Program-made: the position numbers and the translations under genes | Source of the DNA: Dysidea avara | Lineage: Eukaryota; Porifera; Demospongiae; Dictyoceratida; Dysideidae | Assembly (NCBI RefSeq): GCF_963678975.1 | Contig: NC_089272.1 | Location: 22,767,399-22,831,398, forward strand | Length of the DNA: 64,000 nucleotides | Reading direction: 5' to 3' | Part shown: piece by piece, positions 4,883 through 58,300 of the stretch | How positions within the stretch are numbered: the stretch's first letter is position 1 | How the letters are laid out: each line of letters opens with the position of its first letter | Notes under the pieces: generated by a model | Seen by the model: the letters and a program-made list of their open reading frames with translations, nothing else | What the model was told of the DNA's origin: nothing | Database searches by the model: none

Positions 4883-6436
4883 CTCTAGTAATGATTCACT
4901 GTACTCTTACTGTATGCACATTCTCTGTGCTTACAGCATCATATATAATGTTATACTATGTTAAAAAGATTTAAATCTGTTGGTGCAAAATATTATATGC
5001 AACATGATGTACACCAGTGACCAGCCTTATCATGTGCAGTAGTGCATATATGAAGGCAGTCAGATGTCTCCATCAATCCTCACATGCATGCACATGTTCA
5101 CACTCATCATACAGTGGTATTTAGTTGACATTTTAAGCTACATCTACCAATTCAAAATGGGACACATGTACAGGCTGTAGGTACAGACCCTATAGGATAG
5201 CTATATGGTCTCCCATAGGAGGCGGGTGATGGATACAAGAAATGGAATGAAGAGTATACTAAATATTGGGAAACAGTCTAGTAGAAGTAGTGAAGTGGAA
5301 GCAAAACTTTATATATGCCGCACACCTCACCATGCGGCCATTAGTCCCAAACATAGCTGTACTTTAATTTGTGACCTCAATACAATAGTTCCCAGGTATC
5401 AAGAAATCTATGCTACACTTCATCAATTGTTTTGGTCCACACTTCACTCAAGTCATGAGGTATATGCATGGGTGATGTTACATAGAAATTAGTACACTGC
5501 CATAAAAATTCAGTGGACGATTGGAGCTTTGTCCATGTAACTGATGTACAGTGTACAGTATAACTTCCCTTCCTCATTAAATTGAGCCATATACCTAAGA
5601 GAACTGAAGTTCAGTCCCAATAGACCTTAAATACACTATGGCTTTTTTGGAACCTACTGGTCATGGTCATTATAATGAAGTATGGTATTTACTTCAATAG
5701 TAGCTGCACTCAAGTGGTGCAACGATCAATTTTGGCTTAAACATTTTTGACCATCAAGTAGTAGTCAAATTCAAAGTTATCACATTGCTTTTAAGGACTA
5801 AGGTAATAAGTGTCACAGCGTTTAACCATATACAGTGTAAACACGGTGCTCTTATTAATGAGGTATGAAGTGTATCTACATGTGTTCACTATTATAATCT
5901 GGTCTTTGCAAAGAGATTACCACTTATGAAACTTTTCACCATTTTCTTTTGTATACTTTGGATTTTCACTTCAACTGTTTCCAACTAGCCTAGAAAGGTT
6001 GTGTCACTAAGAACAATCACTATTGTGTAAGTTGAGACACTGTATTTTCTGTAAGTTGTCAGCAATATAAAGTTGTTGAATAGGTTATTTTGTAAATAAA
6101 TACAGTCAGCAGTGGGAAATACCCTGGGAATACCCACAATCAAAAGGCAATTAGGTACACAGTAATTACCCATGGGATAAAGCAATAATAAAATTCTATT
6201 TAGCAGCCCAGCTTTTCAAATCCTGGAGACTGAGATTGAGTTCTGACTGGCCCAGGCCTAGCCTCCTCATACGTACATGTAGCTACATTGTAAGAAACTG
6301 TATTTATGGAGGCAGTTATCCTATGACCAGAAAAACTTTACCTGGTTATACTTTTGTATACTACATATTGTACATTTCTAGAGTTTGACCAATCAACGAA
6401 GGTAATGTAGATTGTAGAAGCGTAATGTACATGTAG
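4883..6436. repeat. Intergenic; dispersed repeat copy (about 5340-5990)
   Basis: No gene is visible. The stretch from about 5340 to 5990 is clearly homologous, with small indels, to 9403-9890 in the same orientation. Shared words include CCCAAACATAGCTGTACTT, ATCAAGAAATCTATGCTACA and CTTTGCAAAGAGATT. It is an interspersed repeat of unknown class. Confidence 0.6.
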
Positions 6437-7640
6437 AACAAGTACACAAATTTTTTTGGAATTTTCAACTAGAATAGGGACCATAGCACATCGATAAAAG
6501 TACAGTGCTAGGGATATAACACTTCTTATTGTTTTACTGTGATATTTAATATCATGGACTACTCCAACTTGTTTCAGTACTTTTTATTGATGTGCTATGG
6601 TCCATACTCTAGATGAAAATTCCTTGTTTACTTGTTTGTTAACTATTTTTTTTTGCAAACAATATTATTATGACTGGTGAACCCATGCATACCGCGAAAG
6701 AAATGGTGCCGCACTCCCCATGACCAGCTATAACAATTATCATCTGAAAAGTGAAGTATTCATTATACTTCGTTGTCAGCTATGTTAGACCTGTTACACA
6801 GCATTACGAATCAAGAACTGTTCAAAAAGCTCCCCTGCAATCCACGCATACATTGTATCACATCAAAAGAAAGAAATGGGCGCGCCCCAGCTATATCAAT
6901 AATAATTATCGTCTGAAAAGTGAAGTATCCATTACACTTTTGTTCAACCCGTTACACAGCAGTACGAATCAAGAAGTGTTCCAAAAGTACCTATGCAATC
7001 AAAGTAGCCGCTATGAAAAATACAGACGATTTCTGTTATGAAGGGAAGCCATCACGTGCTACCACCAAATCGACACTTTTCGTTGTCAGCAAAGATGAAT
7101 GGGACACAAAGGAGGACACTGGTAAGTTCATGAAGAATGCATTGTATGTACTGCAGTATGCCAAAAGGCACCTCTCAGGCCAAAGCAATGTCGAACAGCG
7201 AAAATATCAAACCCGTATATAGCCTTAGCCATTATCGAGTTATACTTGTCTGAAGGCTTCAGTCAGTCAGTCAGTCAGTCAGTCAGTCAGTCAGTCAGTC
7301 AGACAGTCAGTCAGTCAGTCAGTCAGTCAGTCAGTCACAGTCAGTCACTACTAATTTCCATTTAATAATTAAAAAAAAAAATTCATAGCAAACTTGTTGA
7401 AAGCATTTCGGGTCAATCTGAGGGCTTGTTTGGGCTTAACTTTACCTAACCAATACTGCTTCATTGTCATTAGGGAAAAGTGAGGCTGGTTTTTGGGTGA
7501 TATTTTTTCATGGGCCACACCTACTTCTTTGTGGTCCCTACTATATAGTACTATCGTACTGTATGATATACATAATATCAGATCCCAGCTGCACAATAGC
7601 TCTAAATTCCTTCTGTTAAAAATCACTGATTTTTTTCAGG
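6437..7640. repeat. Dispersed composite repeat with foldback head and (CAGT)n tract
   Basis: The first part (6437-6637) is a foldback. Its arms contain GACCATAGCACATC and its complement. The following sequence (about 6700-7050) recurs in reverse orientation at 33840-34210. The part at 7020-7640 recurs at 55730-56400, sharing GGGACATAAAGGAGGACA-like and CTGGTTTTTGGGTGATATTTT words. Short frames cross it but contain no recognisable domain. It is an old transposable element of uncertain class. Confidence 0.6.
7260..7347. repeat. (CAGT)n microsatellite
   Basis: About twenty near-perfect tandem copies of AGTC/CAGT, with single-base interruptions near 7302 and 7338. Confidence 0.95.
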
Positions 7641-12166: not shown

Positions 12167-15100
12167 CTATGCAGATTTGTTAGCACTTGTCACTCTAGCA
12201 GCAAACCCAATTATTCCAGCACAAATAAAGAAACCAAACAATACTCCAGTTCTGTCTATCTGAAGCTGATTGGGTGCTTCTCCCTCACGACAATACTTGT
12301 CACCAAACACACACACCCAAGCATAAGTGCTTAGGAACTGAAGGAACAATAATGGTAGTATTCCCAGGTGTGCTAGAAAGGAGAATGGCTCCAGCAGCAT
12401 TGTTGCAATTAACTTGAATAGTTTAGTATCACCTTCTTCAAACAACCTGTTACAATTACACATGTACTTTTCAATAAAGTGATCAAGACACACTACACAT
12501 ACAGACTACACAGTGGGGCCCATTGATACCAGACACATCTTGGGACAATCCTACAGTGCAAGAGGTGTCTCGGTTCCTTTAGTCATATGGAATAAAGAGA
12601 AAAGATTATTACCAAGGCATCCATATCAGATGTCGATTTCAAGAGGTTTCACTGCTTATCAAAATACAGTACTACAGTGAATAGGCTCCTAACATATATT
12701 CATACTAAGGCTGGCAAAATTTAACTGATAAAGCTTCTTGTAATAAAGCTAATGAAAGTCACATAGTACATGTACAGACAAAGCATTGAAAATGTGGTAA
12801 AGGATGTGCAATATACACTATATAGTTGTCTCCAAGGGTACTGAACAGTTTTGCTGATTCTCACTAGCATGCCATCATGAATTTAGACAAATGTGTAGGC
12901 TTTCTTGAAGTCCATTTGTAAATACAGCTTTCCTGATCTTTGCAAGTGTAGTACAACGGTAATAATTTTGCACTTTCATGGCTTACATCACAACACTTTG
13001 TTGCTGCATCATAACTTCATGATACACCTTCATATAAGAGAGTAGGATACTCTCCTCAGTATATATATCATGAACTCTTGGTTATACATGTACTGTGACT
13101 CAATGAGCTTATTTCATCATTATAAATAATCACTGGCTAAAGTGACATTCCTAAGTTTTATCCTATGTATCAAACAGTATAGTAGTACAATTAAGTAGGG
13201 ATCACCCCAAAAATGATGCCTTTAAAAACCATCCTAGAACATCTTATGCGATGAAAATCAGGAATAATATTACATCAAATACAGCATTAAAAAAAGAAAA
13301 ACACACTTACAGGCGGCTGGATATAGAAATTTTTTTTTAAATCGCCATTACACTGTACTTGAAATTTTGTCTGACTGCCTGATCACAGTCGCAGGGCTAG
13401 AGGCCAAACAAAGCAGCGCACGGCCATCATTTTACACCACAATAACAGACTCACCAATAGGATGTGCCTTTTGAGGGTCCGATGAGTGTGTGCCCTCTGT
13501 GCCTTGTCTTTTCTTTAATCTCTAGTCTCGTTCTTCATCCAATGAAACCATATTACCGAGACCACGCCTATTTACTCTATCTCTGACACACACCCTTATT
13601 TTGGTCTAGCTGTATAGCACATTGAAAATATGAAATACCCCCCTGGTGGTGAAAGGCTGACTCACAATACCCTAATACAGCAGTCACCCTAATAGAACAG
13701 TCACATGTGTACAGCTGTATGCTACAGTATAACAAACAAACAAACAAACAAACTGTATATCAATTTTAAAATGAAATAAGGATCCAAGCAATAAAAAATA
13801 GTGAATGAATGATGGTATATTACAGCATAACTCGGTGGGAAAATCCCTATTTTGGCAATATGCTATGTTGAACATATGAAGCTTAATCAGTCAGTTGAAA
13901 ATTCACTGTTTCTATAGAGACTTATTGGAGATACTTCCAAGCTGTTTAAACAGCATACTTGGGCTTCTGTTGTACAAGAATTTGTGATGGACACTTTGTG
14001 GTATAAATTTAAAGTACAGAATTTGTACAAAGAAGTTGGACATGACTAAAACACGGAACAGACTGGGAAAACGGACTAACAAATGGACTGGGAAGAACTT
14101 GCCTGAAAACGTTTTTTGACCATAGAAATTCACTGTATAGCTGCTAGAAAGAACATAACATGCAACAACGACCTGAAACAAACCTCTGAACCATTCTGAA
14201 CACGATGTCGCAGTGTGCTCAAGCCGATACTAAGCCCTGCGCTTAAAGATAGTATGAAATTAAATCCATTTTGTGTTTAATTAAAAGCACACTTTCTGTT
14301 GCGCATTTGTAAACAAGACGCTTTAAGCCTGTTAAGACACTATGTTACTTGGATTTAGTGGTCTGGTTAATTGCTGCAATTAGTTTGACGGCTGATCTTC
14401 CGTTTTACAGGTGACAGCTCGTGTGATAGGTAGGCTTCATGGTGGGTATTTAATCAGCTGGCAAGGTACTGGCTACTACAAATATACGTAGTCTGTGTTA
14501 TTTTGTTTGTTGAACTTGTTTAGAACATTAACTGACAACTTCGCTGTCACAGGCGCTCACACTGGCGCTTTGTAAGTTATCCCAGGGTTTAATGGTGGCT
14601 CCACGCGTTCAGAGGTTTGTTTAAGGCTGTTGTTACGTGCTATATTCTTTGTAGCAGCAATATAGTGAGTTTCTATGGCAAAAAAACATTTTCAGGGAAG
14701 TTCCTTCCAGTCCGTTTGTGAGTCCGTTTTCCCAGTCTGTTCCGTGTTTTAGTCATGTCCAAAGAAGTTTAGTAGGAGGAATTCCCAAAACATGTAAATC
14801 CGAAAGAATATTTATTTGCATATTATGGCTTACAAGCACAGAATGTATGCTAAGCATCACTACATAATAATTATACAAAATGTCAGGCATATTAATATAT
14901 TAATATATACAACCTTTTCTCTATCTTACACTTGATTCATGTCCTTTAATAATACAAATAACATTTTAGATTTGGGCTGCACACACAATACAAGCCCAGA
15001 CAATACATACATGCATGCATACACAAACTAACACATGCATAACGCTAACAGACTGCCACATGTATGATTGTGAAAATGTCCCGAAGGGTCCTTCACTTGT

Positions 15101-19429: not shown

Positions 19430-20990
19430 GGATTTTATTAATGAAATTATTTTATCAATTTTAGTCAAATGAGAAGGGTTGCACAAAAGGCTGAGCCTGC
19501 AAACGTGCTCCCCAAAAGGACAAAACAGTACAAGATACAAGGACAATATACAAATACAAAAACAACAAATAAAACAGTACAATAGTGCATAAATACAAAG
19601 CAACATTTAGTTTAAAAAGAAAGTGCCGGAGGGCAACACGGAATAGTTTGGGGTCAGTTATCTGTAAGATATTGGAAGGTACGCTGTTCCAAAAGAAAGG
19701 TGAGTTGATGAAAAAGGAAAACCGATAAGCATTGATGGTGGATATAGAGGTGTCTATGGCTAATGGATTTGAATGTCTATTAACTGCAGAGAAATACCGT
19801 GAAGAAGTTGCTGATTGGTGGTGCAAGATGTTATGTACTTGACAGATAGTGAAGTAGTTTTGTCTCTGGTGTAATGATGGCCACTCCAATTGATCTAAGC
19901 AACAGTCAGATGATCTGGACCATTGCTTGCAGGCAGGATTCCAACTACTTCCGCAAACCCATCTGGCTGCCCTGTACTGAACTTTTTCCAGCTGTTTTGA
20001 TGTCACCAGATGAGTGCAGGTACCATACTGGAGAAGCATACTCCAGTATAGGACGGACAATACATTTATAGACTGCAGCTTTAACAGACGATGGACATGT
20101 ATAAAGAGAATGCCGAAGAATATTTAAGAATCTAGTTGCCTTTGCAGCAGTATACTTGACATGGTCCGACCACTTAAGGTGGGAATTGATGAATACACCA
20201 AGGTATCGTACAACAGATTTGGTGGATTATTTAATCTGTAGCTTGCAGGAGGAGGTGAACGTTTATAAGAAATGCAGATTGTCTCACATTTAGAAGAATT
20301 TAAATTTAGTTGCCATTTACGAGACCATTCAAAAACTTTTGACAAATCAGCTTGAAGCATATCTTGGTCTGACGAAGATACAATTTCCTTGTAGAGGGCT
20401 ATGTCATCTGCAAACATTAGAACTGAAGTATGAGAAATAGATTGGTAGATGTCATCAATGTACAATAAAAACAATATAGAGGCCCAAGAACAGATCCCTG
20501 GGGCACTCCAGATAATACAGGTGCCAATTTGAAAATGATCCATTAATAATCACCCTCTGAGACCTCTTGGTAAGGAAATACTTTAGCTATTGCAGAAGAT
20601 CACCTTTGATTCCTAAACATTCAAGTTTTAATAATATACGGGAGTGAGGCACAGAGTCAAAGGCTTTAGTTAGGTCAAGAAAAATACAGTGTACTGAGTG
20701 ACGCCTTTCCAGACAAGCTGCCCAATCATGAATTGCTGTCAGTAACAGACTGACAGTGGAATGACGACCACGGAAACCATGCTGATAGTTATTGATAAGA
20801 TTGTGAGACTCCAATGCTTTGACAAGTTGACAATGAATTATTCTCTCCATTACAATTGATGTTAAACTAATTGGGCGGTAGTTGGATGAAAGATGATTAT
20901 CACCTTTTTTTATAAACTGGTACAATGTTAGCTGTAACCCAATCCCTGGGTAAAGACCCTGTCGAGAAATGTACTGCACAGCTTTAACCA
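19430..20990 (-). pseudogene. Non-LTR retrotransposon remnant (reverse transcriptase)
   Basis: Read on the minus strand, fragments in different frames spell the order of a LINE-type reverse transcriptase. These are KKGD...NYRPISLTS and FLDLTKAFDSVPH (about 20900-20650), then a segment with YIDDI and the catalytic MFADDIALY (about 20460-20400), then the thumb and C-terminal region with RAARWV and FFWNSVPS (about 19980-19660). Several frameshifts and stops break it. The 5' part is absent, because the sequence is interrupted at 20999 by the element at 21000-22827. The 3' end is somewhere near 19430. CR1/Jockey-like affinity is likely from the motif style. Confidence 0.85.
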
Positions 20991-21175
20991 TAATAATTAC
21001 GGAGTGGCTATTCGCACGGTCACGTACTAATAACTTCGTGCTATTCGCACGGCAGTCACGTGATGTTATTATTTTATGGATAGTACACGGTTCATTCATC
21101 TCCGAAAACTACACGTGGCTTTGAGCGGGATTTTTCTTTCAGGACCTTTCTCTGTGGTCTTTTGTCACATGTCCG

Positions 21176-27777: not shown

Positions 27778-27965
27778 AGTTATAAACGCATGTGCTATTA
27801 AATGATCTTAATTATATTCTTAAATACGCGCATGTGCTGAAAACTGAAACAAAGGTTTAAAACCACCATTGTAGCGGGGTCTTATCGATGGCAGGAAGAT
27901 AGCCTCGACAATCAGGCCACAGACTAAACACAGGATTGTCACATGTGAGTGCACTAGATATACTG

Positions 27966-29276
27966 ATGATTTCAGCAGCTAATGTACGACTATTTCAATC
28001 GATCAAATTTTTCGCCATCACAATAGTGTTTACACTGCTAGCACTGTTTAGCTACCACTATTACTATTCTAGTAACTTGAGCGTCAATGTTGCGGATCAA
28101 AGAGTGATACAGCGTACGGCAAATGCTGTGCAATCACGTTTGGTCTCACACAAAGTATCTAATCATGATGAGGTGCCTGAGTACTTAACTGTGAAGGGCT
28201 TACAATGTAATCTGCCATCATACTACACTCCAGATATAGTTGAACATTTAGATGTCTTGTGGAAATACCTAGAGGGATATGCGGCATTTCATAACAAAGG
28301 TGTGAGGCTACTAAAGGACGGACAGTCAGACAGAGTGCGTACTCTCACTTGGTATTGTGGTTTAGATTTCTGTAGTGGTTTAGGTTGGAGATTCCGAGGG
28401 TTTATGGTCAACCTGATCTATGCTGCACTTACTGACAGAGTACTCCTGCTAAAGTGGAACAAACCATCAGCAGAAAGTGTGTACTTGGAGCCTAATATGA
28501 TTAGCTGGCAGTTCAGTGACTATTTACTTTCTGGCTCTTTTGTTGATCTTGGAATATTTAAGAGAGCAGATATTGCCAATGTAACTACTTCCAATCACAT
28601 CATTGAGACCCTAGTGGGAGGCACTAATCATGTACAAATGTTATATAACAGTGTAATTCGGCAGGATGCCCTCCTAGAAATTTTAGCTGCTAAGCTAAGT
28701 GATCAACACAAATTGAAAGTGATCACAGAGTTTAGGGGGGTTTTACAAAACAATGGATATGAAATATTACAGTCCTTTGCTTTTTCATTTTTGTTTAAAC
28801 TTAGCAATAATTTACAAACATTTGCAAGTAGTATAAGAAATAAACTAAACCTTGACAAAATAAAATATGTTGCCTTGCACATAAGAACTGGAGAAGTTGA
28901 TAATTTACGTAAAGCAGTGAAACGTTTTCAAGAGAAAGATTCCATGCAACTTTCTGCTGCAAGATGTGCGATCAAACAAGCTGATAAATACATAGGACCT
29001 AACGGTATTGTAGTTGTAGTATCAGACTCTACAGATGTCAAGCGAACGTTAGCTAAAGAGTTCCCTCGAATAAGATTCCTTGATAATGTGATAGTCCATG
29101 TAGATCTAGTGAAGGATTTGAGTGAAGATGCAATGCTTGGAATATGGCAGGATATTATCTTATTAGCTGAGTCGTACATTCTAGTGCAACAACGTTCATC
29201 CTTTGCTGAGCTTGCAGCTAACATTTGTCAAATACCTGAAAGTAGAATCAAGTCATCCAGTAAATGTAAACTTTAA
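27966..29276 (+). CDS. Fucosyltransferase-like type II membrane glycosyltransferase, copy 1
   Basis: Intronless, 436 residues. The ATG at 27966 is the first in-frame Met; the open frame upstream starts at a TTG. One N-terminal hydrophobic anchor (about residues 12-34) with a short cytosolic side suggests a type II Golgi protein. Around residue 137 is SGLGWRFRGF and around residue 304 is LHIRTG. Near the C-terminus come VVVSDS and an ILLAES...SSFAELA motif. This order matches GT-B fucosyltransferases (alpha-1,2/1,6 and protein O-fucosyltransferase groups, NodZ and plant xyloglucan type), where GLGxR and HxRxG bind GDP-fucose. Paralogues lie at 42226 and 56491. Donor and acceptor are inferred from family resemblance only. 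Confidence 0.7.
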   Translation: MISAANVRLFQSIKFFAITIVFTLLALFSYHYYYSSNLSVNVADQRVIQRTANAVQSRLVSHKVSNHDEVPEYLTVKGLQCNLPSYYTPDIVEHLDVLWKYLEGYAAFHNKGVRLLKDGQSDRVRTLTWYCGLDFCSGLGWRFRGFMVNLIYAALTDRVLLLKWNKPSAESVYLEPNMISWQFSDYLLSGSFVDLGIFKRADIANVTTSNHIIETLVGGTNHVQMLYNSVIRQDALLEILAAKLSDQHKLKVITEFRGVLQNNGYEILQSFAFSFLFKLSNNLQTFASSIRNKLNLDKIKYVALHIRTGEVDNLRKAVKRFQEKDSMQLSAARCAIKQADKYIGPNGIVVVVSDSTDVKRTLAKEFPRIRFLDNVIVHVDLVKDLSEDAMLGIWQDIILLAESYILVQQRSSFAELAANICQIPESRIKSSSKCKL

Positions 29277-32987: not shown

Positions 32988-35900
32988 ACACTTTATGAAA
33001 ACCATCTCCGTAAACCAGGTGCGTGCCCACAGAAGACCAGCTGTGGGTATGTGCTTTAAAAAGTTAAAGTAGCGGCCAACAAATGGCTACAGTGATGTTG
33101 TTAATGCTAATAAATTTTTTTAACATTGCAGCCATTTGTTGTACGCCACCCAGGCTGCCACCTTTTGATTTCACAACTTTTCACCCAGGTTTTTTTTTTT
33201 TTAAGGCCACACCTTTTTCACAACTTGGCTGTTTTGACTAATCACAAACTAGTGTAAGGAATGTTCCAATTAATGCTTCTGTTTTTTGGTAGATAATTTT
33301 ATAGTGTAGTAGCAGTTGCAAGAATTCTGTGTTGTTGTAAATATGACTCTGTACTTATTTTAAAGAAATCTTATCAATTATAGGTCAGGTTTCGCTCCTG
33401 TGAGATCAGTTTAGTCTAGTTGTTAGAAGGTGTTTGTGTATGCTCTTAAATTCTGTTTTTCTAAGAACATACAAGGCCAAAACTTTGGTAATTTAATTTA
33501 GATAACAGAAAGAAAAAATATGTAAATTAACTTTTGGTGGATCCTTAAATCGGCCACTCATGTTAAAACTATTGAGTCCTACAATACTGTTATGCCTTTA
33601 GTCTATTGTGTAATATTAGTGTATGCAAGAGTTCATAATATTATGAACTCTTGTTGTATGTATGCCATACTGAATTGCATATACTCCTACTGTGTTGTTG
33701 TTTGTACATTAAATGTTTGTGTTTCTTCTTAGGAAGAACTGGCATCAAACTTAGCTAGCCTAGTGCAGTGTTTTTCAGATACCGATCAAGGTACTGTATT
33801 TAATTGTATTGAAGATTATTTTGTGTGAATTTCCTACTTTAGTATATCTGCTCTTGTAGATCCAGTTCTTTTGTTGTATTCATTCTATAAACTAAGCAAA
33901 CGATGTGCTTGCAACCCCGTATTTTTATAGTGGCTACTTTGATTGCAGAGGTGCTTTCAAACAGTTCTTGATTCATAATGCTGTGTAATGGGTTGAACAT
34001 AGCTGACAATGAAGTGTAATGACATACTTCACTTTTCAGATGATAATTGATAGCTGGGGCGTGGGGCGCCATTTATTTTGATGCGGTATGCGCGAGTTCA
34101 CCAGTCATAATAATTTTATTTTACAAAAAAAGTTGACAAACAAGTACACAAAAAATTTGGAAATTTCAACTAGAATAGGAACCATAGCACATCAATAAAA
34201 AGTACTGAAACAAGCTGGAATAGTGCACGATATTATAAACCACATTAAAACAATAAGAAGTGTTATATTCCCACTATGCTCAAAATGCCATAATGAAATT
34301 AGCCCATGAAGAGATGATTGCATAATGTACACTGACCCTACATTTGATGTAGACTTGGGTAGGATTGATCACCCAGAGTTGGATATATAGAGACAGATTT
34401 TTTCATTGTCAACCCTACCTGTGAGTCGAAAAATGTTTGGATAAGGTAAGAACTAGCTAGTGCTATAGCTTATTCACTGATTGTTTCCACACTTTTTCAA
34501 ATACAGACATGCCTCCATCATGAAACTACCACTCTGCACGGAGTAACCACTCTACAAGCAAGCTTACCTATGTAGGCCTTTAGTGAACTCTGCATAGACA
34601 ATTCAACAGCGCCGATTAAAACATTAAACTCGTGTAACCGAAATTCTCCATGATATCTCTAGGATATGTCCGTTCATTGTAACCAAACATAGCCAGAACA
34701 TACTGGCTGCTGACCCATAATCAAATATTTTAGGTGTGCATGTGAAATATATAACACATCCAGTGGCTGCACTCGTGTGTGTTGGCTTGGGTGATTGATC
34801 ACCCTGTACAGGCTGTCAGCCTGATAAGTGTTAACTGTAACTCGGTGGCTTTCTGGCTTTGCCTGACATGTATGCCCTCTGCCCTCGGGTTAGGCAGTCA
34901 GGCATACATATCAGGCAAAGCCCTCATGCCCATGTTACAACTATTACATGTCTTCTGCTACGACTTTCTTAGTGAGCTATCTCAGGTCCTTACTACTCGT
35001 TATGTGTACGGTAGCTGTTGAATACTTGGTTGAATAACATTCACTGTCCAAAATCATTTTCCATTTGCTATGCTGTAATACTACATTGTATACTCTTGGT
35101 TACTATTATCAAACAGTATGGTAGTACTGTTTAAGTAGGGTTTGCATCAAAAGTGACGCGCGCCGCCAAAAATACCGTCCTTAAAAACCAGCTTAGAAAC
35201 TTCTTACGCGATGAAAATCACCTTAATGGAATAATATTAGTCCATCTAACATCAAATGTAGCATTAAAAACAAGAAAACACTTACTGGCGGCCAGATATA
35301 GAATTTTTTAAAAATCGTCTAAACTCGAAATTTGGTCTCACTCACTCACTCACTCACTCACTCACTCACTCACTCACTCACTCACTCACTCACTCACTCA
35401 CTCACTCACTCACTCACTCACTCACTCACTCACTCACTCACTCACTCACTCACTCACTCACTCACTCACTCACTCACTCACTCACTCACTCACTCACTCA
35501 CTCACTCACTCACTCACTCACTCACCACAGTCGCAAGCCTAGAGCCCAAATGAAGCAGCGCATGCATATGCTCACCATTTTACGCCACAACAACAAACTC
35601 ACCGGTGGGATGTGCCTTTTGGGGTTCCGACGAGTGTGCGCCTTTTCTTTTATCTTCAATCAGGCTGCTTGTTTTCTTCATCCAACGAAACCATATCGAG
35701 GCGTCAATTTTCCATATCAACACTTTCTTTAAGCGCAGCATAATGGATGCCACAAAATTATTTAAGGTGCTTAGACTGCGCTACTGTACGGCCTCCGACT
35801 GTATGGAGGTACCAGTACTCCACGATAGGTCACAAGGTCACACCCATTCTTTATTCTACGTATTATCGATCTATCGATCGAGACCACAATGACCACGCCC

Positions 35901-42225: not shown

Positions 42226-43635
42226 TTAAGGTCTACATTTACTTGTGGCAGTTATTATTTTGGTACGGGACCGTGTTATTCCACACATGGCAACAGAGAT
42301 CAGTGGGAATGATGATGGTTGCATTACTACAATATGCGATTCTGCCATTATGATAATATCTTGCCATGTTCCCAGCATTCCTTCCTTACTAATGTTCTTT
42401 GATTTATCCACATGTACTAATACATTGTTCTCCAATATAACTACACGAGAATATCCTTTAGACACTGTTTGTTTCATTTCAGAAGAATCCGATACAACAA
42501 CAACTGGGGCATCAGGTCCTATATACTTGTCAGCTTGTTTAATGGCACACTCGACAGCAAATCTGACACCAGATAATGAATTCTGAACTCGAGCCGCTTT
42601 TTCTTTAATATCACTACCACTGAATTGTCCTGTTCTTAAATGTACAGCAACATATTTCTTACCATACAGATTTAAATTGTTCCGCACCTCATTGGCAAAC
42701 ACCTGTAGTTCCCTGGTGAACTTGAACAGGAACTTATAAGATAGTGATTCCACTATGGGATAGTTGCGTACATCAAACATGTTAGTGACATTAAATGTAC
42801 TTAATTTTGGGTTGTGTAGATTATCTATTATTCTACAAAGTGTGGATACTAATTTTTCAATTGGGTTATAGTGCACTTGTACATGTGAAGTAGTTCCAAC
42901 CAGTGTGTCAATAAAATCATCAATTAAGTATTTGTATCTCTCGTCTACTAAATGAAGTCTTTTAATGAGGCCAAGATCTTTAAAAGATTCAGTCAATTTT
43001 AAGGAGTAGTCGCGATATTGCCAGTCAACTTTATTTGGTAATAAATACACATTTTCAGCTGAGGGGTGATCCCATCTAAATAACAATACTCGGTTAGTGA
43101 GGATTGCAAATGTCAGGGTTGCCATAAAGCCTCGGAATCGAGTACCTAGTCCCCCACATTCGTAAGTCTCAGCACAGTACCAAGTTAGTGTTCGGACATT
43201 GTTTAACTGTCCACTTTGTAATAGCTGTATCCCTTCATTATGAAATAAAGCATACTCTGGCAAAAGAGCATTAAATGTATTCACAACTTTCTGATCTTTC
43301 ACATCATACTTAGGTTCTTCACAATTCAGATCACCACCAGGCAAGGGTTCCAGGTTACTTGGGGATGGTAGAAAATTTTTATCATCAGATTTATCCAAGG
43401 ATTTATCAGAAGACAACAGTTTCTGCTGATCAACTGGTAGTAAGCCAAGTATCTGTTTTAATCTCTCTTGTGATCTATTAGCTCTGCCAATTAGTCCTTG
43501 TGTACGGGCATGTGTCAATACCCCACTGGTGATCATGTACCTACAGTACCAGTAAAGTGTTGCCAGCACCACAACTATCAGTGTCAACTGACCAACTAGT
43601 GTTAACACTCGGAGAATCTCGCGGAGAATACTCAT
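42226..43635 (-). CDS. Fucosyltransferase-like type II membrane glycosyltransferase, copy 2
   Basis: Intronless, 469 residues, ATG at 43635. One hydrophobic anchor at about residues 9-32 predicts a type II Golgi protein, followed by a Ser/Asp/Lys-rich stem. Donor-site-like motifs are CGGLGTRFRGF (about residue 160) and VHLRTGQFSG (about residue 330). C-terminal words are VVVVSDSSE and MAESHIVVMQPSSF. The segment LLFRWDHPSAENVYLLPNKVDW corresponds to the acceptor-side region also seen in copy 1. The copy at 56491 is nearly identical over residues about 15-315, with most replacements in the last 140 residues. Relative to copy 3, three residues are added at the N-terminus and four in the stem. 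The upstream region is interrupted by the insertion at about 43800. Confidence 0.72.
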   Translation of the reverse strand: MSILREILRVLTLVGQLTLIVVVLATLYWYCRYMITSGVLTHARTQGLIGRANRSQERLKQILGLLPVDQQKLLSSDKSLDKSDDKNFLPSPSNLEPLPGGDLNCEEPKYDVKDQKVVNTFNALLPEYALFHNEGIQLLQSGQLNNVRTLTWYCAETYECGGLGTRFRGFMATLTFAILTNRVLLFRWDHPSAENVYLLPNKVDWQYRDYSLKLTESFKDLGLIKRLHLVDERYKYLIDDFIDTLVGTTSHVQVHYNPIEKLVSTLCRIIDNLHNPKLSTFNVTNMFDVRNYPIVESLSYKFLFKFTRELQVFANEVRNNLNLYGKKYVAVHLRTGQFSGSDIKEKAARVQNSLSGVRFAVECAIKQADKYIGPDAPVVVVSDSSEMKQTVSKGYSRVVILENNVLVHVDKSKNISKEGMLGTWQDIIIMAESHIVVMQPSSFPLISVAMCGITRSRTKIITATSKCRP

Positions 43636-44078
43636 TGTCTTGACGAAACAATGGACAGGGTGTACTTCATAAATAGAAAACGTCTTGTGTATGCAGTAAA
43701 GACATTATAATAGATAATCGTAGCAGTACCAGAAAAACACGTACGAATCTTTGGGTCCACTCGGTCTTATCTCATAGTCTACGAGATAAGGTAAGTAAGG
43801 GGGTTTCCGGACAGCTGCGTATTCCGGACACTTCGTTTATAATCCGCTACTGAAGGATGGAATGGAAACCAATCAGGCTATGGTTTGAGTACCTAAGTAC
43901 TCCACTTGTGCGCTATAAAATACCAAAGTTTTATCTCGATAGCTTCAAGGATTACTGAGATTCGTCACGATTTGCTTGCGCATGTAGAATATTTTGTGTA
44001 AAAAACTTTCTATACGCGTGTTAATGTTCTATACCATAATTTTTATGCGTAATTTTTATGCGTATTTTGTACCGTACG

Positions 44079-44180
44079 CGGGATGCAATTTATTCACATC
44101 ATCTGATGCCCCGTATACGGAAACTCGTGTATTTATCGTGCTATAGCGCCTGCGATTTTATTTCTCATTGTGGTTTTGCA
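44079..44180. repeat. Left terminal inverted repeat of the Mutator-like element
   Basis: About 100 bp starting GCGGGATGCAATTTATTCAC, matched in reverse complement with few differences by 49373-49472. Outward (44019-44078) lie TGTTAATGTTCTATACCA and two TTTTTATGCGTA units. Confidence 0.85.
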
Positions 44181-44210
44181 CCTGGTTTCTGGGCTGCCCG
44201 CTGTTTTGAT

Positions 44211-47200
44211 ATGGAGTTGTCAGTTGAAACAGAGAAACCACCCTGGGCTAGGCAATTGAAAAGACGCGGTTTTTATTTTGAAGGACTAGTGGACAGTGAT
44301 GATGTGGAGACCCTACTTGAAGGACACAGAAGAGACACTGTGACCTCGTACGGGACAAGAACAAGCAGCAAGGTGACAGCTGATGATGGGACTGGTGATA
44401 AACAAGTAGCCCAAAACCTGCAGGTACTATTACATTAGTCACTTATCTGTGGCCTAAGTTATAAGCAATCTGTGTTTTAGGGAAAAGTTGTAAAGTTGTT
44501 TTGGAGTCACACTGTTGGTCATTACACTGTTAATTGGGACAGTACACCATTTAGCATAGGTGAAAAGCGCTTGTTGCACTGTCAGTATGGAAAGCAGTAC
44601 TTTAAGCCTCACCAGCCAACAACTGATCGCATTAAGCTGCAGAGCACAAGAAAGATAGGGTGCAGTGCCAGTTTACATATTAGAAAGTTTATCTTTTATC
44701 CAGAATACAGTGTGCACTCTGAACTGTCTTCTAAAAGCTAAGAAACAGGAGCGAAAAGTCAAGGAAGCTGCCCTCCAACAGTTGAAAGATAAGCTAACTA
44801 ACTCAGCTTCAGAAGTGCGTACAATTGACAAATACTTTGTTAGTTTACCTGCAAGTGAAGCCCACCATGACACACACCCCACAGGTGCATCTGTTGCATT
44901 TTCTCAGAAAGTTAATCCTTTGTTGATTCAGAAGATTCATGAACTTGTGTTGGCTGGTGTCTCAGAGCCAATTGAAATGAAGCGCCACTTAAAGCATCAT
45001 GTTTTACACTACTTGAGCAAAAGTGGAACCCCAGATCCCAATGACCGTGCGTATTACCCTACTCTTGATGACATAAGGAATCATATGAATCAAGCGCAAA
45101 AGACCCTGAAACTGTCTTTAGTTGATCAAGAAAATGTTTCCATGAAAACTGCACCTGAAACGAAAATACATTTTCAACCATTCACCAAACCTATCGACAA
45201 TGAGAATTCAAATGGGACTGAACTACTGTGGGTTCACCAAGAACCGTGGCAACAGGACTTATTGATAAAGTATGGCAATACAGTTAGCATGATCGATGCC
45301 ACATACAAGTCTACCAAATATGATTTACCTTTGTTCTTTATAACAGTGCATACAAACACTGGCTACTGTGTTGTAGCAGAGTTTATTGTCCAAGGTGAAA
45401 CAAAAGAAAGCATACAGAATGCTCTTTCTATCATCAAATCCTGGAATCCTCGGTGGGCTCCAAAGTGCTTCATGACAGATTACAGTGAAGCTGAAATTTC
45501 CGCCTTAGAAGCTGCATTTCCAGATACTGTTGTGTATCTATGTGATTTTCATAGGGAGCAAGCCTGGGAAAGATGGGTCAAAGCCAGTAAGCATGGACTA
45601 AGCAATTCTGAAGCAGACATCCTATTGGACCATTTCAGGGCAATAGCTTGGGCACCTTCTGTTAACCCTGAAGAATTTGAAGAAGGGAACAATTTCTCAA
45701 GGTATCATCACTATGACTCAGCCGTAGCAGTTTTAAAAGCTACAAATTTGTGGAATCGCAATAGCAATGTCCATCAGTGGTTGACTACGACATGGCTGAA
45801 TATCTCTGAGGTATGTCACATATATGTAGTCACCATTTCCGTTTCATATAGCTGCATGACTTTCACATCTATATAGTCACAATATGCTGACGTATTGTTA
45901 AGTATGTTTTGTGATTTTTAGAAATGGGCACTAGCGTACAGAGATGACACCTATCATGCTGCTGTTAACCCAAATAATGGAGCAGAGGCAATGAATAAGT
46001 TGCTGAAATACAAGTTTCTTCCAAGACAGAAAACCCTGACTTTGTCGTTTTTGGTCATTAAGCTAATTGAGGAGTTTATACCTGCACTGCATTACAAATA
46101 TGTGTTTCAGAACTTTAAGCAAACAACTTTGTACAGAGCATATAATCCGGCTGTAGTTCCACCATACCTTCAATCCAAGCCAAAGTCAACCATCTTGCAC
46201 TGCCTCCATCGCAAATCAAAGAGTCTGAAGTACAGTGATTCTGATGTAAAGGAAGTTGATATGGTTAGAGGAATATTTGAAGTAAAGGGAAAGAACACAG
46301 ATCACACAATAGAATTTTCAGTACCATCAAGTACGTGCAAAGATTGGATAGCTTACCATATTCCTTGGAAACATTTCTTTGCTATATTCAATGTGAAAGA
46401 AAGCTGGAACTGGGACAGGTTGCCTCAATCATATCTGGAATCTGCATACTTGAAGATTGATACCGATGCTATAGCTTCACATCTAAACTCCACAGGCACC
46501 ACACCCTTGGATTCTGAAATACCACCACAAGAACCAGATGAATCAGATTTAGTTGGATACACAGATGGTGGGGCTGATGACTCTATACCTAATACTACCA
46601 CTACTGAAGTGTTTGAAGCATTGCCCTCTGCTAAGGTATTGCATATGATTGGGAGAAAAGTGCTTGGGTTTAGTCAAAATGTATAAGAAAAATTTGCATG
46701 GCTTACTAAAGCCATGAAAGTTTTCAAGTCGGGCTTTGTCATTTACAGAATATACTCATTACCATTTTAGTGTTCTTTTGTATTAAGTTATTTGGTAGTG
46801 TTTGTCTCTAATCATGGTATTTTTATTTTCCACAGAAAAGTAGGCATTTGAAACAAATGGTTACAAACATGAGAGTTACCCTGGAATGCTTTAAAACTGT
46901 AACCTACAATATCGATAGCAATGTTAGCTTTGACGTCCTGGAAGGTATCCAACATAAGTTATCCAGTCTATTGCAAGAGTTTCAAGAACAACTACCACAA
47001 TCCCATGGACTGTTAATAAGACCACAAATAAGGAAGCAGATGAAAAAATCCTTTAGGAGAAAAGTTTCATTGAAGAGACTAACCCAGCTGCCTAAGTGTA
47101 CTACAAAAAGGAAAAAGAATGATTCAAGGTTTCGTGGCAGAGTTGGCAGGAAAGCAAGCATGTTAAGAAAGGTATGTGTGTGTGACATTTGTATAATTGT

Positions 47201-48294
47201 ATTAGATACGTACATTTAATAGGCTTTTAATCAAGATAAAGATCATCATACTGCTACTAGGACAGCTCAAAACAAGAACGGCTCAGGTATCGTGCATGCT
47301 ATCTTGCACGTATGTAGTAAAGGATTTACATGATTCTGTATATAGGCAAGAGAAAGAGAAAACAACGTTGTGGAACATGTGGTGCGTGCTCTAAAGATGA
47401 CTGTGCAGAGTGTGTCAACTGCAAAGACATGGTGGTACTGGTAAAAAGAAGAAGTGTTGTGTGCAACGACAGTGTAAAAACATACAGACAAAGGGAGAAA
47501 AATCCAGGCCTCAGGTGCTTCATGTTTCTGATGTTGGATGTGTGGTAACAGTGTTCACAATTGTAGATCCCACCCAGTAGTGATACCACAGTTGCTCAAT
47601 GTCAGACAGTGTCAGTGGATGAGATGCAGCAGGTAATTTTGCACATCAGCAAATTTGCCTTCATGTGGTGTATCTGTGACAGGGGCTTCAGCAGATGTGT
47701 CCCAAGTACTTGGCACCACCTGGAGTTTCTATTCCTGCTAAGTATGTTCAAGTATTTCCAGAGTATCAGCAAATGGCTGTGACAGTCAATCAGTACAATC
47801 GTACAATACATTGTGTTGCCCCAGACGGTAATTGTTTGTTTAGAGCATTGGCTCATCAGGCTTTTGGTGATCAGATCTACCATGCTCAAATGCGTAAGGC
47901 ACTGGTCACACTGATCAGTGACAATTTGGAGATATACAAGCCCCTGTATATGGGAAGAAGAAATGGATTTGAGGAGCATGTTGACAGGATGTCTAAGGAT
48001 GGAATATGGGGTACACAGTTGGAAATACAAGCGGCGTCTGATTGTCTAGGTGTACCCGTGTATGAGTTAATGTACTGCTCTGCCACAAGTAGCCACAAAT
48101 GGATCACCTTTAAGCCGTGTCATGTGTTGATTACCCATGACGTGATACCACAGCCACATTTTCCATTTAAAGTACATCACATTGAACTGCTTCATAATGG
48201 ATATCACTATGACAGTATCACATCCAGTAATCATTGCAAGTTACAAGCACCCCATCTGAGTCGTGTAGAGGATCAACAAATAATATGCATTTAG
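44211..48294 (+). pseudogene. Mutator-like transposase with CXXC finger and OTU protease, frame-damaged
   Basis: I infer eight exons: 44211-44423, 44481-45810, 45922-46635, 46836-47171, 47223-47286, 47346-47514, 47567-47632, 47683-48294. All are GT-AG and phase-consistent, about 1,170 residues in total. Exon 2 carries the MULE DDE core: SMIDATYKSTKYDLPLFF (first Asp) and CFMTDYSEAEISAL (second Asp), followed by LCDFHREQAW. Exon 3 ends with a SWIM-like stretch in which key cysteines are replaced (STCKDW..., IPWKH). Exon 6 encodes a CXXC zinc finger (RCGTCGACSKDDCAECVNCKDM). The last exon is an OTU cysteine protease (DGNCLFRALAHQAF, WGTQLEIQAASDCLGVPVYEL, HNGYHYDSI). Two lesions break the frame: an extra A in the run at 44733-44736 and a frame change after CKDM near 47431, best explained by a loss of about 10 bases. 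Inverted repeats at 44079 and 49373 bound it. Confidence 0.8.
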
Positions 48295-48548
48295 GTGTAC
48301 TTGTTTTATTGTGGTGTTACCCACAAGCTGCCATTCATGATTGTTGTGTGGTTAATTACAGTGGTCATAGCAATGTGAAGTGGTTTGAACTTTGAATGCT
48401 GTATTATTCATGAAGTGGGTGGGAGGCTTTTTGGAGGACTACACTAAAAATAAGTTAATCCATATTTGCAAAAGTTCAAGTGGTAGCTATGGGCAAGTAG
48501 TATATTTAATGTGTGCTCTAATTGGACTTTTGGTTCTATTAGTAACAT

Positions 48549-48595
48549 CAAGAGTTCATAATATATATAAGGAACTCTTCCTTATATATATTATG
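48549..48595. repeat. Palindrome of the CAAGAGTTCATAAT family
   Basis: Starts CAAGAGTTCATAATATATAT and folds on itself through ATAAGGAACTCTTCCTTAT. An imperfect member of the same palindrome family as 32110. Confidence 0.75.
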
Positions 48596-48698
48596 CGCAC
48601 GGTTCATACGACTCGGAAGCTTTAGTGATGGGTAACATTTGGAACGAACGACTGATTATTGTTAATCCTTTCCTTTTGCTTTACTTGGTGGAGTGTCA

Positions 48699-49192
48699 AG
48701 GGGGTGTCACGTCGGCTTACGCTGTAGGTAGATCTGCGACCGCGGTCAAAGTCTTGACCGGGGATAATTTCACCTTGACCCTTGACTTGCAGCGTTTATC
48801 GTCTTTGACCTGTGACTTGAGCGTTTCTTGTCGAACTTTTTACCTCCACTTATTTCTCTATTTTCCTATACGCACCTGCGCTTGTAACCTAGTATAATAT
48901 TTTCTTAGTGCGTGCTACCAGCAGCTGTGAGAGAAAAATCATTATAATTACGGCGAAATGCCTGTTGGAGCTTTAAAACATCTTCTTGGAGATCCTTACT
49001 TCTTGTAAGTTACGTATAATTCCGTAAACTTGATAATAGCTACTTATAGTTTTCGATTGTGTGTTTCGAACCTTCTGTATCGTCTTGACCCTTGACCCAC
49101 TGTAAGAGCTATTTTGTGGCCTTGACCGTTGACTTAGAGTTTGACCGCGGTCGCAGATCTACCTACAGCAAGAGCCTGAGTGACACCCCCTT
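48699..49192. mobile_element. 494-bp inverted-repeat element with 8-bp target duplication
   Basis: Begins AGGGGGTGTCAC and ends GTGACACCCCCTT. Flanked by exact GAGTGTCA at 48691-48698 and 49193-49200. The inner parts of the arms share GTAGGTAGATCTGCGACCGC and its complement. The interior has TTGACC..GACCTTGACC repeats. A decayed relative of the right half lies at about 31040-31155 in RRP1 intron 1. It lies inside the Mutator-like element. hAT-like or related, by target length. Confidence 0.8.
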
Positions 49193-49372
49193 GAGTGTCA
49201 TGTAGTGTGGAAGGATTTGTGGGGAACCCTCAGCTGTCGTTATTGAAGAAATCTGATCTGGTTCAATTAGTAAACCATTATAAATTAGAAATTGCCACCG
49301 ACGCTCGGAAGGCAGATATTAAACCATAGATACTCCGCAAAACCATAGATCTTATGTATATAATATCTATGA

Positions 49373-49472
49373 CAAAACCAACAACGAGAAATAAAATCGC
49401 AGGCGCTATAGCACGATAAATATCCGAGTTTCCGTATACGGGGCATCAGATGATGTGAATAAATTGCATCCC
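49373..49472. repeat. Right terminal inverted repeat of the Mutator-like element
   Basis: Reverse complement of 44079-44180. Outward to 49560 it continues into several copies of a palindromic word, TACCATACGCGTATGGTA, and variants. Confidence 0.85.
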
Positions 49473-49560
49473 CATACCATACGCGTACGGTACGATTTTC
49501 CGTACCATACGCGTACGGTATAGACATACGCGTATGGTACGTACCATATGCGTATTATGC

Positions 49561-52884: not shown

Positions 52885-53004
52885 TATACTCAGATGGTAC
52901 GATTTTCCGTACCATATATATACGCGTATGGTTGTACCGTACGCGTATACGCATATGGTACCATACGCGAATGGTACAAAATACGCATATGGTATAGAAC
53001 ATTA
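52885..53004. repeat. Solo end sequence related to the Mutator-like element
   Basis: On the minus strand it starts TGTTAATGTTCTATACCATA and contains ATGCGTATTTTGTACC, the same words as at 44019-44075. It then has copies of the ACGCGTATGGTAC word and GTACGGAAAATCGTACC, as at 49480-49540. It is an extra, inverted element end 3.4 kb beyond the right repeat. Confidence 0.7.
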
Positions 53005-56490: not shown

Positions 56491-57876
56491 TTAAGATTTA
56501 CATTTACTTGTGGCAGTCATCTTTTTAGTACGGAACCGTGTTATTTCACACATGGCAACAGAGATCAGTGAGAATGACGATGGTCGCATTACTAGAAAAT
56601 GTGATTCTGCCATTATGATAATATCTTGCCACGTTCCCAGCATTCCTTCCTTACTAATGTTCTTTGATTTATCAACATGTACTAGTACATTATTCTCCAA
56701 TATAACTACACGAGAATATTCTTTAGACACTGTTCGTTTTATTTCAGAAGAATCCGATACAACAACAACTGGGCCATCAGGTCCTATATACTTGTCAGCT
56801 TGTTTAATGGCACACTCCACACTAAACCTGGCATCAGATAATGAGTTTTGAACACGAGGTGCATTTTCTTTAATATCACTACCACTGAATTGTCCTGTTC
56901 TTAAATGCAAAGCAATGTATTTCTTACCATGCAGATTTAAACTGTTCCGCACCTCATTGGCAAACACCTGTAGCTCCCTGGTGAACTTGAACAGGAACTT
57001 ATAAGATAGTGATTCCACTATGGGATAGTTGCGTACATCAAACATGTTAGTGACATTAAATGTACTTAATTTTGGGTTGTGTAGGTTATCTATTATTCTA
57101 CAAAGTATGGGTACTAATTTTTCAACTGGGTTATAGTGTACTTGTACATGTGAAGTAGTTCCAACCAGTGAGTCAATAAAATCATCAATTAAGTATTTGT
57201 ATCTCTCGTCTACTAAATGAAGTCTTTTAATGAGGCCAAGATCTTTAAAAGATTCAGTCAATTTTAAGGAGTAGTCGCGATATTGCCAGTCAACTTTATT
57301 TGGTAATAAATACACATTTTCAGCTGAGGGGTGATCCCATCTAAATAACAATACTCGGTTAGTAAGGATTGCAAATGTCAGGGTTGCCATAAAGCCTCGG
57401 AATCGAGTACCTAGTCCCCCACATTCATAAGTCTCAGCACAGTACCAAGTTAGTGTTCGGACATTGTTTAACTGTCCATTTTGTAATAGCCGTATCCCTT
57501 CATTATGAAATAAAGCATACTCTGGCAAAAGAGCATTAAATGTATTCACAACTTTCTGATCTTTCACATCATACTTAGATTCTTCACAATTCAGGTCACC
57601 ACCAGGCAAGGGTTCCAGGTTACTTGGGGACGGTACAAAATGTTTACCATCAGATTTATCAGAAGACAACAGTTTCTGCTGATCAACTGGTAGTAAGCCG
57701 AGGATCTGTTTTAATCTCTCTTGTGATCTATTAGCTCTGCCAATTAGTCCTTGTGTACGGGCATGTGTCAGTACCCCACTGGTGATCATGTACCTGCAGT
57801 ACCAGTAAAGTGTTGCCAGCACCACAACTAACAGTGTCAACTGACCAGCTAGCGTTAACACTCGGAGAATATTCAT
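56491..57876 (-). CDS. Fucosyltransferase-like type II membrane glycosyltransferase, copy 3
   Basis: Intronless, 461 residues, ATG at 57876. The layout is the same as copy 2: anchor at about residues 6-29, charged stem, CGGLGTRFRGF near residue 152, LHLRTGQFSG near residue 322, VVVVSDSSE, and MAESHFLVMRPSSF near the end. All motifs expected for GDP-fucose binding in this fold are intact, so it should be functional if the assignment is right. The duplication shared with copy 2 covers the gene, about 80 bp downstream and at least 100-300 bp upstream. Confidence 0.72.
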   Translation of the reverse strand: MNILRVLTLAGQLTLLVVVLATLYWYCRYMITSGVLTHARTQGLIGRANRSQERLKQILGLLPVDQQKLLSSDKSDGKHFVPSPSNLEPLPGGDLNCEESKYDVKDQKVVNTFNALLPEYALFHNEGIRLLQNGQLNNVRTLTWYCAETYECGGLGTRFRGFMATLTFAILTNRVLLFRWDHPSAENVYLLPNKVDWQYRDYSLKLTESFKDLGLIKRLHLVDERYKYLIDDFIDSLVGTTSHVQVHYNPVEKLVPILCRIIDNLHNPKLSTFNVTNMFDVRNYPIVESLSYKFLFKFTRELQVFANEVRNSLNLHGKKYIALHLRTGQFSGSDIKENAPRVQNSLSDARFSVECAIKQADKYIGPDGPVVVVSDSSEIKRTVSKEYSRVVILENNVLVHVDKSKNISKEGMLGTWQDIIIMAESHFLVMRPSSFSLISVAMCEITRFRTKKMTATSKCKS

Positions 57877-58300
57877 TGTCTTGACTAAACAATGGACAGG
57901 GTTACGTCCTATAAAAATAGTAATCGTCTTGTGTATAAGACATTGTAATATCGAGAGAAATATTATCAGTAAAATGCAGCCTTGAATGCAGCACTGAACA
58001 GGTACGAATCACTCAGCTTGGGCTCTCTCGATAATCTATGGCTTGGGGTCGGGACTTGGGGTTCACTAGTATATCCGAGAGTATATCTAGTCTTGATAAC
58101 AGCGTACGTAAATTTCCTCCTGATCAACCGATTACACTTTAATCAAGGTTCTATTTCTAAGAGCTTAGGAAAGAGATTCACCTGCTTGTCCACCTGTCCT
58201 CAGTCTGTGTTCGCGTCGAGGTCAGTGAATGGTCGTACGAATTTATATGAAGCTTTCCGCAAAATTATGAATCTTGCGCACGTGACCCAAACGTGAGGGC
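57877..58300. other. Upstream region shared with glycosyltransferase copy 2
   Basis: The first about 130 bp resemble 43636-43770 (AAACAATGGACAGGG, CGTCTTGTGTAT, GTACGAATC). The part at 58085-58200 resembles 53702-53830. This is the uninterrupted version of the sequence split by the insertion at 43800. Confidence 0.6.

Follow-up and report, generated by a model that had tools for sequence, protein, structure and literature searches.

The element described here is probably a dead copy of a Mutator-type cut-and-paste transposon, whose full-length relatives in the genome of the sponge Dysidea avara encode a single CARF-DDE-SWIM-CXXC-OTU protein that would be guided by its CXXC finger into CpG-rich DNA. 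It lies in a window of 64,000 nucleotides, by which we mean the whole stretch of DNA that was analyzed, and its parts are collected in Table 1. We offer with less assurance, as a reading just short of probable, the more far-reaching proposal that a DNMT1-like CXXC finger steers the transposon into unmethylated CpG-rich promoters, that the OTU domain acts there as a deubiquitinase, and that this lineage supplies most of the CXXC fingers of the genome.

With its inverted ends of 98 nt, which are 95% complementary, the element in the window spans 44080-49472. The coordinates given in the preliminary description (44211..48294) cover only its coding part, and neither the CARF domain nor the inverted ends were named there. 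The coding part can be modeled as eight exons joined at GT-AG splice sites, and Pfam searches of the window frames recovered the ALS2CR8 domain on two sides of a frame break (6.4e-11 and 8.5e-15), MULE in one exon (8.9e-14) and OTU with its DGNC and HYDSI motifs present (1.2e-13). The MULE and OTU domains claimed earlier are thus borne out in the window itself, but the zf-CXXC match is only partial (3.3e-5; 24.2 bits, under the 26.5-bit cut-off) and two of the three SWIM cysteines are changed. Alignment and blast comparison with four sister copies (L021-L024) revealed an in-frame deletion and at least two deletions that shift the frame, of which one lies in the CARF region and another inside the CXXC exon. 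The break in exon 2 is a single frame-shifting deletion in an exon that is open in L022 and L021; a mini-intron at this point was considered and ruled out by the open frame of the sister copies. The copy in the window is a dead, damaged member of a larger family and cannot encode the five-domain protein. The separate element inserted in its 3' part has 59-nt inverted ends (88%) and a CpG o/e of 1.03, and is bordered by an 8-bp repeat, GAGTGTCA, if a few bases of shift are allowed.

Table 1. Parts of the Mutator-like element in the window, numbered from the first letter of the window
Feature	Positions	Strand	Remarks
Left terminal inverted repeat	44080..44177	+	Starts GGGATGCAATTTATTCAC; 6 CpG in its 100 bp; same end in L021-L024
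Exon 1	44211..44423	+	71 codons; start codon at 44211; open in L022
Exon 2	44481..45810	+	CARF/ALS2CR8 domain; DDE core of MULE with two catalytic Asp
Exon 3	45922..46635	+	C-terminal part of MULE with the third acidic residue (NNGAE); SWIM position
Exon 4	46836..47171	+	Basic linker; no Pfam family above cut-off
Exon 5	47223..47286	+	Linker, 64 nt
Exon 6	47346..47514	+	zf-CXXC finger; window copy broken by frame-shifting deletion; open in L021, L022 and L023
Exon 7	47567..47632	+	Linker, 66 nt
Exon 8	47683..48294	+	OTU protease-like domain and stop codon; open in window copy
Separate 0.5-kb element inserted in 3' part	48698..49196	.	Inverted ends; absent from L022 and L023
Right terminal inverted repeat	49375..49472	-	

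The proposal that one spliced gene joins MULE, SWIM, CXXC and OTU fails for the broken frame of the window copy and is upheld by L022, an apparently complete copy elsewhere in the genome with both ends and a perfect 10-bp target duplication. Its frame is open across eight GT-AG exons (213, 1359, 714, 336, 64, 179, 66 and 612 nt) and predicts a protein of 1180 aa; exons 5 and 6 are a multiple of three jointly and neither is so singly, which supports a single frame. All five domains of the predicted protein score above their Pfam cut-offs (ALS2CR8 96.7 bits, OTU 48.9, MULE 44.8 against a cut-off of 27.6, zf-CXXC 39.6, and SWIM 22.2 against 19.6), so that at the level of the conceptual translation the full CARF-MULE-SWIM-CXXC-OTU architecture is confirmed in an intact copy. 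The other sister copies are damaged or incomplete: in L021, exon 1 contains a stop and the 3' end of the copy is truncated; in L023, a deletion immediately precedes the first acceptor, the OTU frame is shifted and the right end is damaged; and L024 is a partial copy.

By its MULE DDE domain, terminal inverted repeats and 10-bp duplications the element belongs to the Mutator/MULE superfamily, whose target duplications range from 8 to 11 bp. Inverted ends were also found at L022, L031 and L026, and among eight elements with both ends seen, three (L022, L026, L031) have a perfect 10-bp duplication, two (L028, L039) an imperfect one detected by eye, and three (L023, L030 and the window copy, whose flanks hold no matching 10-bp repeat) none. 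The element shares the MULE DDE domain, SWIM finger, ~100-bp inverted ends and 10-bp duplication with Mutator transposons at large, and differs from them in adding CARF, CXXC and OTU within one protein. CpG-rich palindromic repeats around CATACGCGTACGG adjoin it, most clearly on the right (49472-49555), with related pieces on the left (44030-44080), elsewhere in the window (52920-52976) and in the left flank of L030; they could represent a target or a small element of greater age. A short element at 14036-14762, with 156-nt inverted ends (88%) and the 10-bp direct repeat CAAAGAAGTT (few bases of shift allowed), is possibly a non-autonomous MULE. The window also contains long ORFs with weak fucosyltransferase matches under the Pfam cut-offs (27903-29273 +, 42229-43704 -, 56494-58008 -), with the transposon ~445 bp upstream from the probable start codon of the second, pieces of a retroelement reverse transcriptase (20127-21108 -, with RVT_1 above cut-off in two ORFs) and a long run of coding LTHS tandem repeats (35268-35729 +).

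The best solved relative of the CXXC finger is that of DNMT1 (5.7e-12; PDB 3pt6), with which it shares an identical CKDMVKFGGTG stretch and an equal cysteine pattern, although DNMT1 is a host methyltransferase and the finger here resides within a transposase. PMC3032784 states that KFGG is present in every CXXC domain with reported selectivity for unmethylated CpG, and that mutation of KFGG lowers binding. By analogy, the element's finger would be expected to bind unmethylated CpG, and if it guided integration, the flanks of inserted copies are predicted to be CpG-rich.

The genomic background is CpG-poor, with a CpG o/e of 0.426 and a TpG/CpA ratio of 1.33 in the window and a pooled CpG o/e of 0.412 across 20 loci of the family (L021-L040), a depletion as expected of heavy CpG methylation (for the invertebrate background see PMC8857917, available in part). 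Against this we set the mean CpG o/e of 250-bp flanks at 13 insertion sites (19 flanks) from five subfamilies, a non-random sample of the family. The median was 1.11 versus 0.33 for the window background (90th percentile 0.82); all 13 sites lay above the background median and 11 of them above the 90th percentile, and the observed median was reached by none of 20,000 random draws, all from one 64-kb window. Pooled flank CpG o/e is 1.35 over the first 100 bp and has dropped to 0.51 at 500-1200 bp, stretches of the same loci more than 1 kb from the elements have a median of 0.29, and the flank GpC o/e is 1.03 versus 1.10 for the window. Eight other inverted-repeat pairs, weak as controls in that only one has a direct repeat of at least 6 bp, gave a median of 0.41 (Mann-Whitney p 0.0002 versus the 13 sites). 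Nine inverted-repeat pairs in or near elements, including the 0.5-kb element of the window (flanks 0.86 and 1.23), were left out of the controls, and L027 and L033, with ends unlike the GGG termini, were left out of the site test. So was what looked like the right end of L032 (o/e 0.53 in a 300-bp flank), an end not borne out by alignment with L031. Adding L020 (107 bp only), the right end of L026 and the second end of L030 gave 15 sites with a median of 1.11. The left flank of L026 is CpG-poor (0.20); with it the L026 mean becomes 0.75, the median of the 15 sites (by hand) 1.09, and 11 of 15 lie above the 90th percentile. The earlier suggestion that CXXC may influence integration sites is favored by most of the measured sites, and this one flank speaks against it. 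CXXC and CpG-rich sites are correlated, in keeping with what is known of the finger's chemistry, and from this we infer a possible causal role.

The foremost alternative, which we consider rather unlikely, is that the CpG richness of these sites arises because MULEs in general favor open promoter chromatin or because copies that landed in unmethylated DNA survived, with the CXXC finger serving to keep the element's own ends unmethylated in the manner of VANC of the plant Vandal MULEs. A general promoter preference gains weight from the make-up of the insertion-site comparison, whose MULEs were all CXXC-bearing. The anti-silencing role has a precedent in the VANC-directed hypomethylation of MULEs, as summarized in the accessible portion of the review PMC13317346, and would agree with the CpG o/e of 1.4-1.6 in the inverted ends of the window copy and L022 versus 0.34 in the L022 coding part. 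However, this end richness is weaker in the L031 lineage, with 1 CpG in its 40-nt inverted repeat and an o/e of 0.84 over the first 150 bp, and the CpG richness of the sites reaches ~300 bp outside the element ends and is not seen at the eight other inverted-repeat pairs.

The extent of the family was examined in a genome of 550.8 Mb in 108 contigs. Protein searches returned at least 126 OTU matches and, with a single exon as query and only the best candidates scored, at least 122 MULE-exon matches; with the zf-CXXC model the best 150 of 193 candidates were scored. Among the matches listed, a same-strand OTU follows within 15 kb in 40 of 91 MULE clusters, and in no cluster does one lie upstream or on the opposite strand. 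Of the best 150 of 193 CXXC candidates, 94 are followed on their strand by an OTU no more than 3 kb away, and none has one upstream or opposite; within 10 kb the figures are 96 downstream, one upstream and none opposite. A MULE match lies upstream of the CXXC finger in 35 of these 150 within 3 kb and in 53 within 10 kb, and in none downstream or opposite. In the same sample, 112 have OTU or MULE in the expected place and 38 have neither at 10 kb. Conversely, a CXXC finger stands within 3 kb upstream of 95 of the 126 OTU matches listed and is absent in 31, among which the window's own OTU is counted because its finger is broken. Six CXXC matches of equal score (C2:10093462, C3:36509541, C9:7352927, C9:23292448, C10:1169860 and C12:1329493) have no MULE or OTU in the expected place and perhaps belong to a second CXXC-bearing repeat. 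With one 210-aa query, tblastn confirmed no relatives in viral and prokaryote contigs.

These counts would overstate the number of transposons if many CXXC-OTU loci were domesticated host genes or defective remnants, and 59 of the scored 150 of 193 CXXC candidates do have an OTU with no MULE upstream within 10 kb, beside the 38 with neither. We regard this as improbable on the whole: the MULE query was one exon with only the best candidates scored, and a terminal motif is present at one or both ends of 13 of the 20 loci L021-L040, including L025, in which no MULE was seen in the stretch examined. The loci L025-L040, whose local matches to L022 range from 25 to 76% identity, all have CXXC (16/16), which was not used as a criterion in picking them; OTU is found in 13 of 16, a count biased because most were picked for MULE and OTU matches. 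The five domains occur in the same order in 12 of the 16, and L025 has CXXC and OTU only.

The pairing of CXXC with OTU claimed in the preliminary description does not hold throughout the family. OTU is not universal, because L026, a bounded element of ~9.1 kb between inverted ends with a perfect 10-bp duplication, keeps CXXC and has no OTU that we could find. Nor was OTU found in the L030 element (both ends seen, CXXC present) or in the stretches examined of L029 and L045, the latter with CXXC; the stretch examined of L044 has neither domain. ORFs downstream of CXXC at L026 6607-7517 look Ulp1-like by eye. A Ulp1-like replacement in the OTU-less lineage was rejected, as six ORFs downstream of CXXC in L026 and L030 matched no Pfam family at E up to 1.

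The predicted active-site and metal-binding residues are largely conserved across the family, in a comparison with one row per close subfamily where possible and rows covering less than 85% of a domain dropped. The transposase residues D353 and D414 (6 rows) and E546 (9 rows) are invariant, as are the SWIM residues C661, C663, C673 and H675 (9 rows). In OTU, all 11 rows have D1025, C1028 and D1154, and 10 of them have H1152. None of the eight CXXC cysteines is missing from more than one of 14 rows, and the tip of the finger reads exactly KFGG in 11 of 19 rows, KYGG, RFGG or IFGG in seven, and is damaged in one. All seven CXXC stretches and all three OTU stretches from divergent loci score above the Pfam cut-offs. 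Between L022 and L025, dN/dS is 0.20 for CXXC (45 codons, dS 0.86) and 0.13 for OTU (147 codons, dS 1.44); within subfamilies the ratio is noisy, with few changes and scatter up to 2.35. L025 itself has two CXXC fingers in tandem and an OTU with tyrosine at the catalytic histidine position (5843-7071). That CXXC and OTU play no part in the element, being adjacent host genes or captured fragments of pseudogenes, as the window copy alone might suggest by its broken CXXC and exons in different frames, is very unlikely and close to refuted by these conserved residues and dN/dS values, together with the joined open frame of L022 and the same order in dozens of loci, which rule out a chance neighborhood of separate genes.

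Transposase and OTU distances are uncorrelated (r -0.33, 8 lineages), and co-inheritance of transposase and CXXC is likewise not supported by their distances (11 lineages); OTU and CXXC distances correlate with r 0.47, reached in 0.0132 of shuffles (9 lineages). The first result leaves the inheritance of one intact fusion unsupported, unless the distances are saturated; saturation or an exchange of modules may lie behind it.

Several known systems resemble the element in part. The closest solved relatives of its OTU domain are OTUD1 (1.7e-11), to which PDGNCL aligns, and OTUD5 (7e-10); they share the OTU core but are free host enzymes, whereas here it is a domain of a transposase. Precedents for such proteases in transposons, as given in the available text of PMC2836005, include Ginger1 with OTU or Ulp1, Mutators with Ulp1 and Helitrons with OTU. 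Ginger1, found in animals, resembles the element in that its transposase ends in an OTU or Ulp1 protease domain, but it has a Gypsy-like integrase core, and CXXC is not mentioned for it in that portion of the source; in the window frames and L022, Pfam detected no integrase family, and MULE instead. Ulp1-bearing Mutators, including Kaonashi/KIU, similarly combine MULE with a ubiquitin-family cysteine protease (PMC2836005 and PMC13317346, each as available in part), with Ulp1 there in contrast to OTU here; OTU and CXXC are absent from the accessible text of PMC13317346, and Pfam found no Ulp1/Peptidase_C48 in L022. By term search, OTU and CXXC are also absent from the main text of a 2026 survey of arthropod MULEs (PMC13359780), and among the open-access matches listed no title or abstract opening joins MULE, CXXC and OTU.

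Under the favored reading of a CXXC-guided Mutator transposon, the mobility of the full-length relatives can be pictured in four steps. The CARF/SWIM part would recognize the ~98-bp inverted ends, after which the DDE core would cut and join, leaving the 10-bp duplication whose footprint is seen at three copies. The KFGG-type CXXC finger may hold the complex on unmethylated CpG and thereby direct it to CpG-rich, presumably promoter, DNA. Finally, it is conceivable that the OTU domain deubiquitinates the transposase or, at the target, chromatin or repair proteins.

If this proposal is correct, a eukaryotic DNA transposon would pick its landing sites by reading DNA methylation, through a domain found otherwise in chromatin proteins of the host. 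This would account for the large expansion of CXXC fingers and provide a natural CpG-island-seeking transposase, and the acquisition of OTU and Ulp1 proteases by unrelated transposases would become testable.
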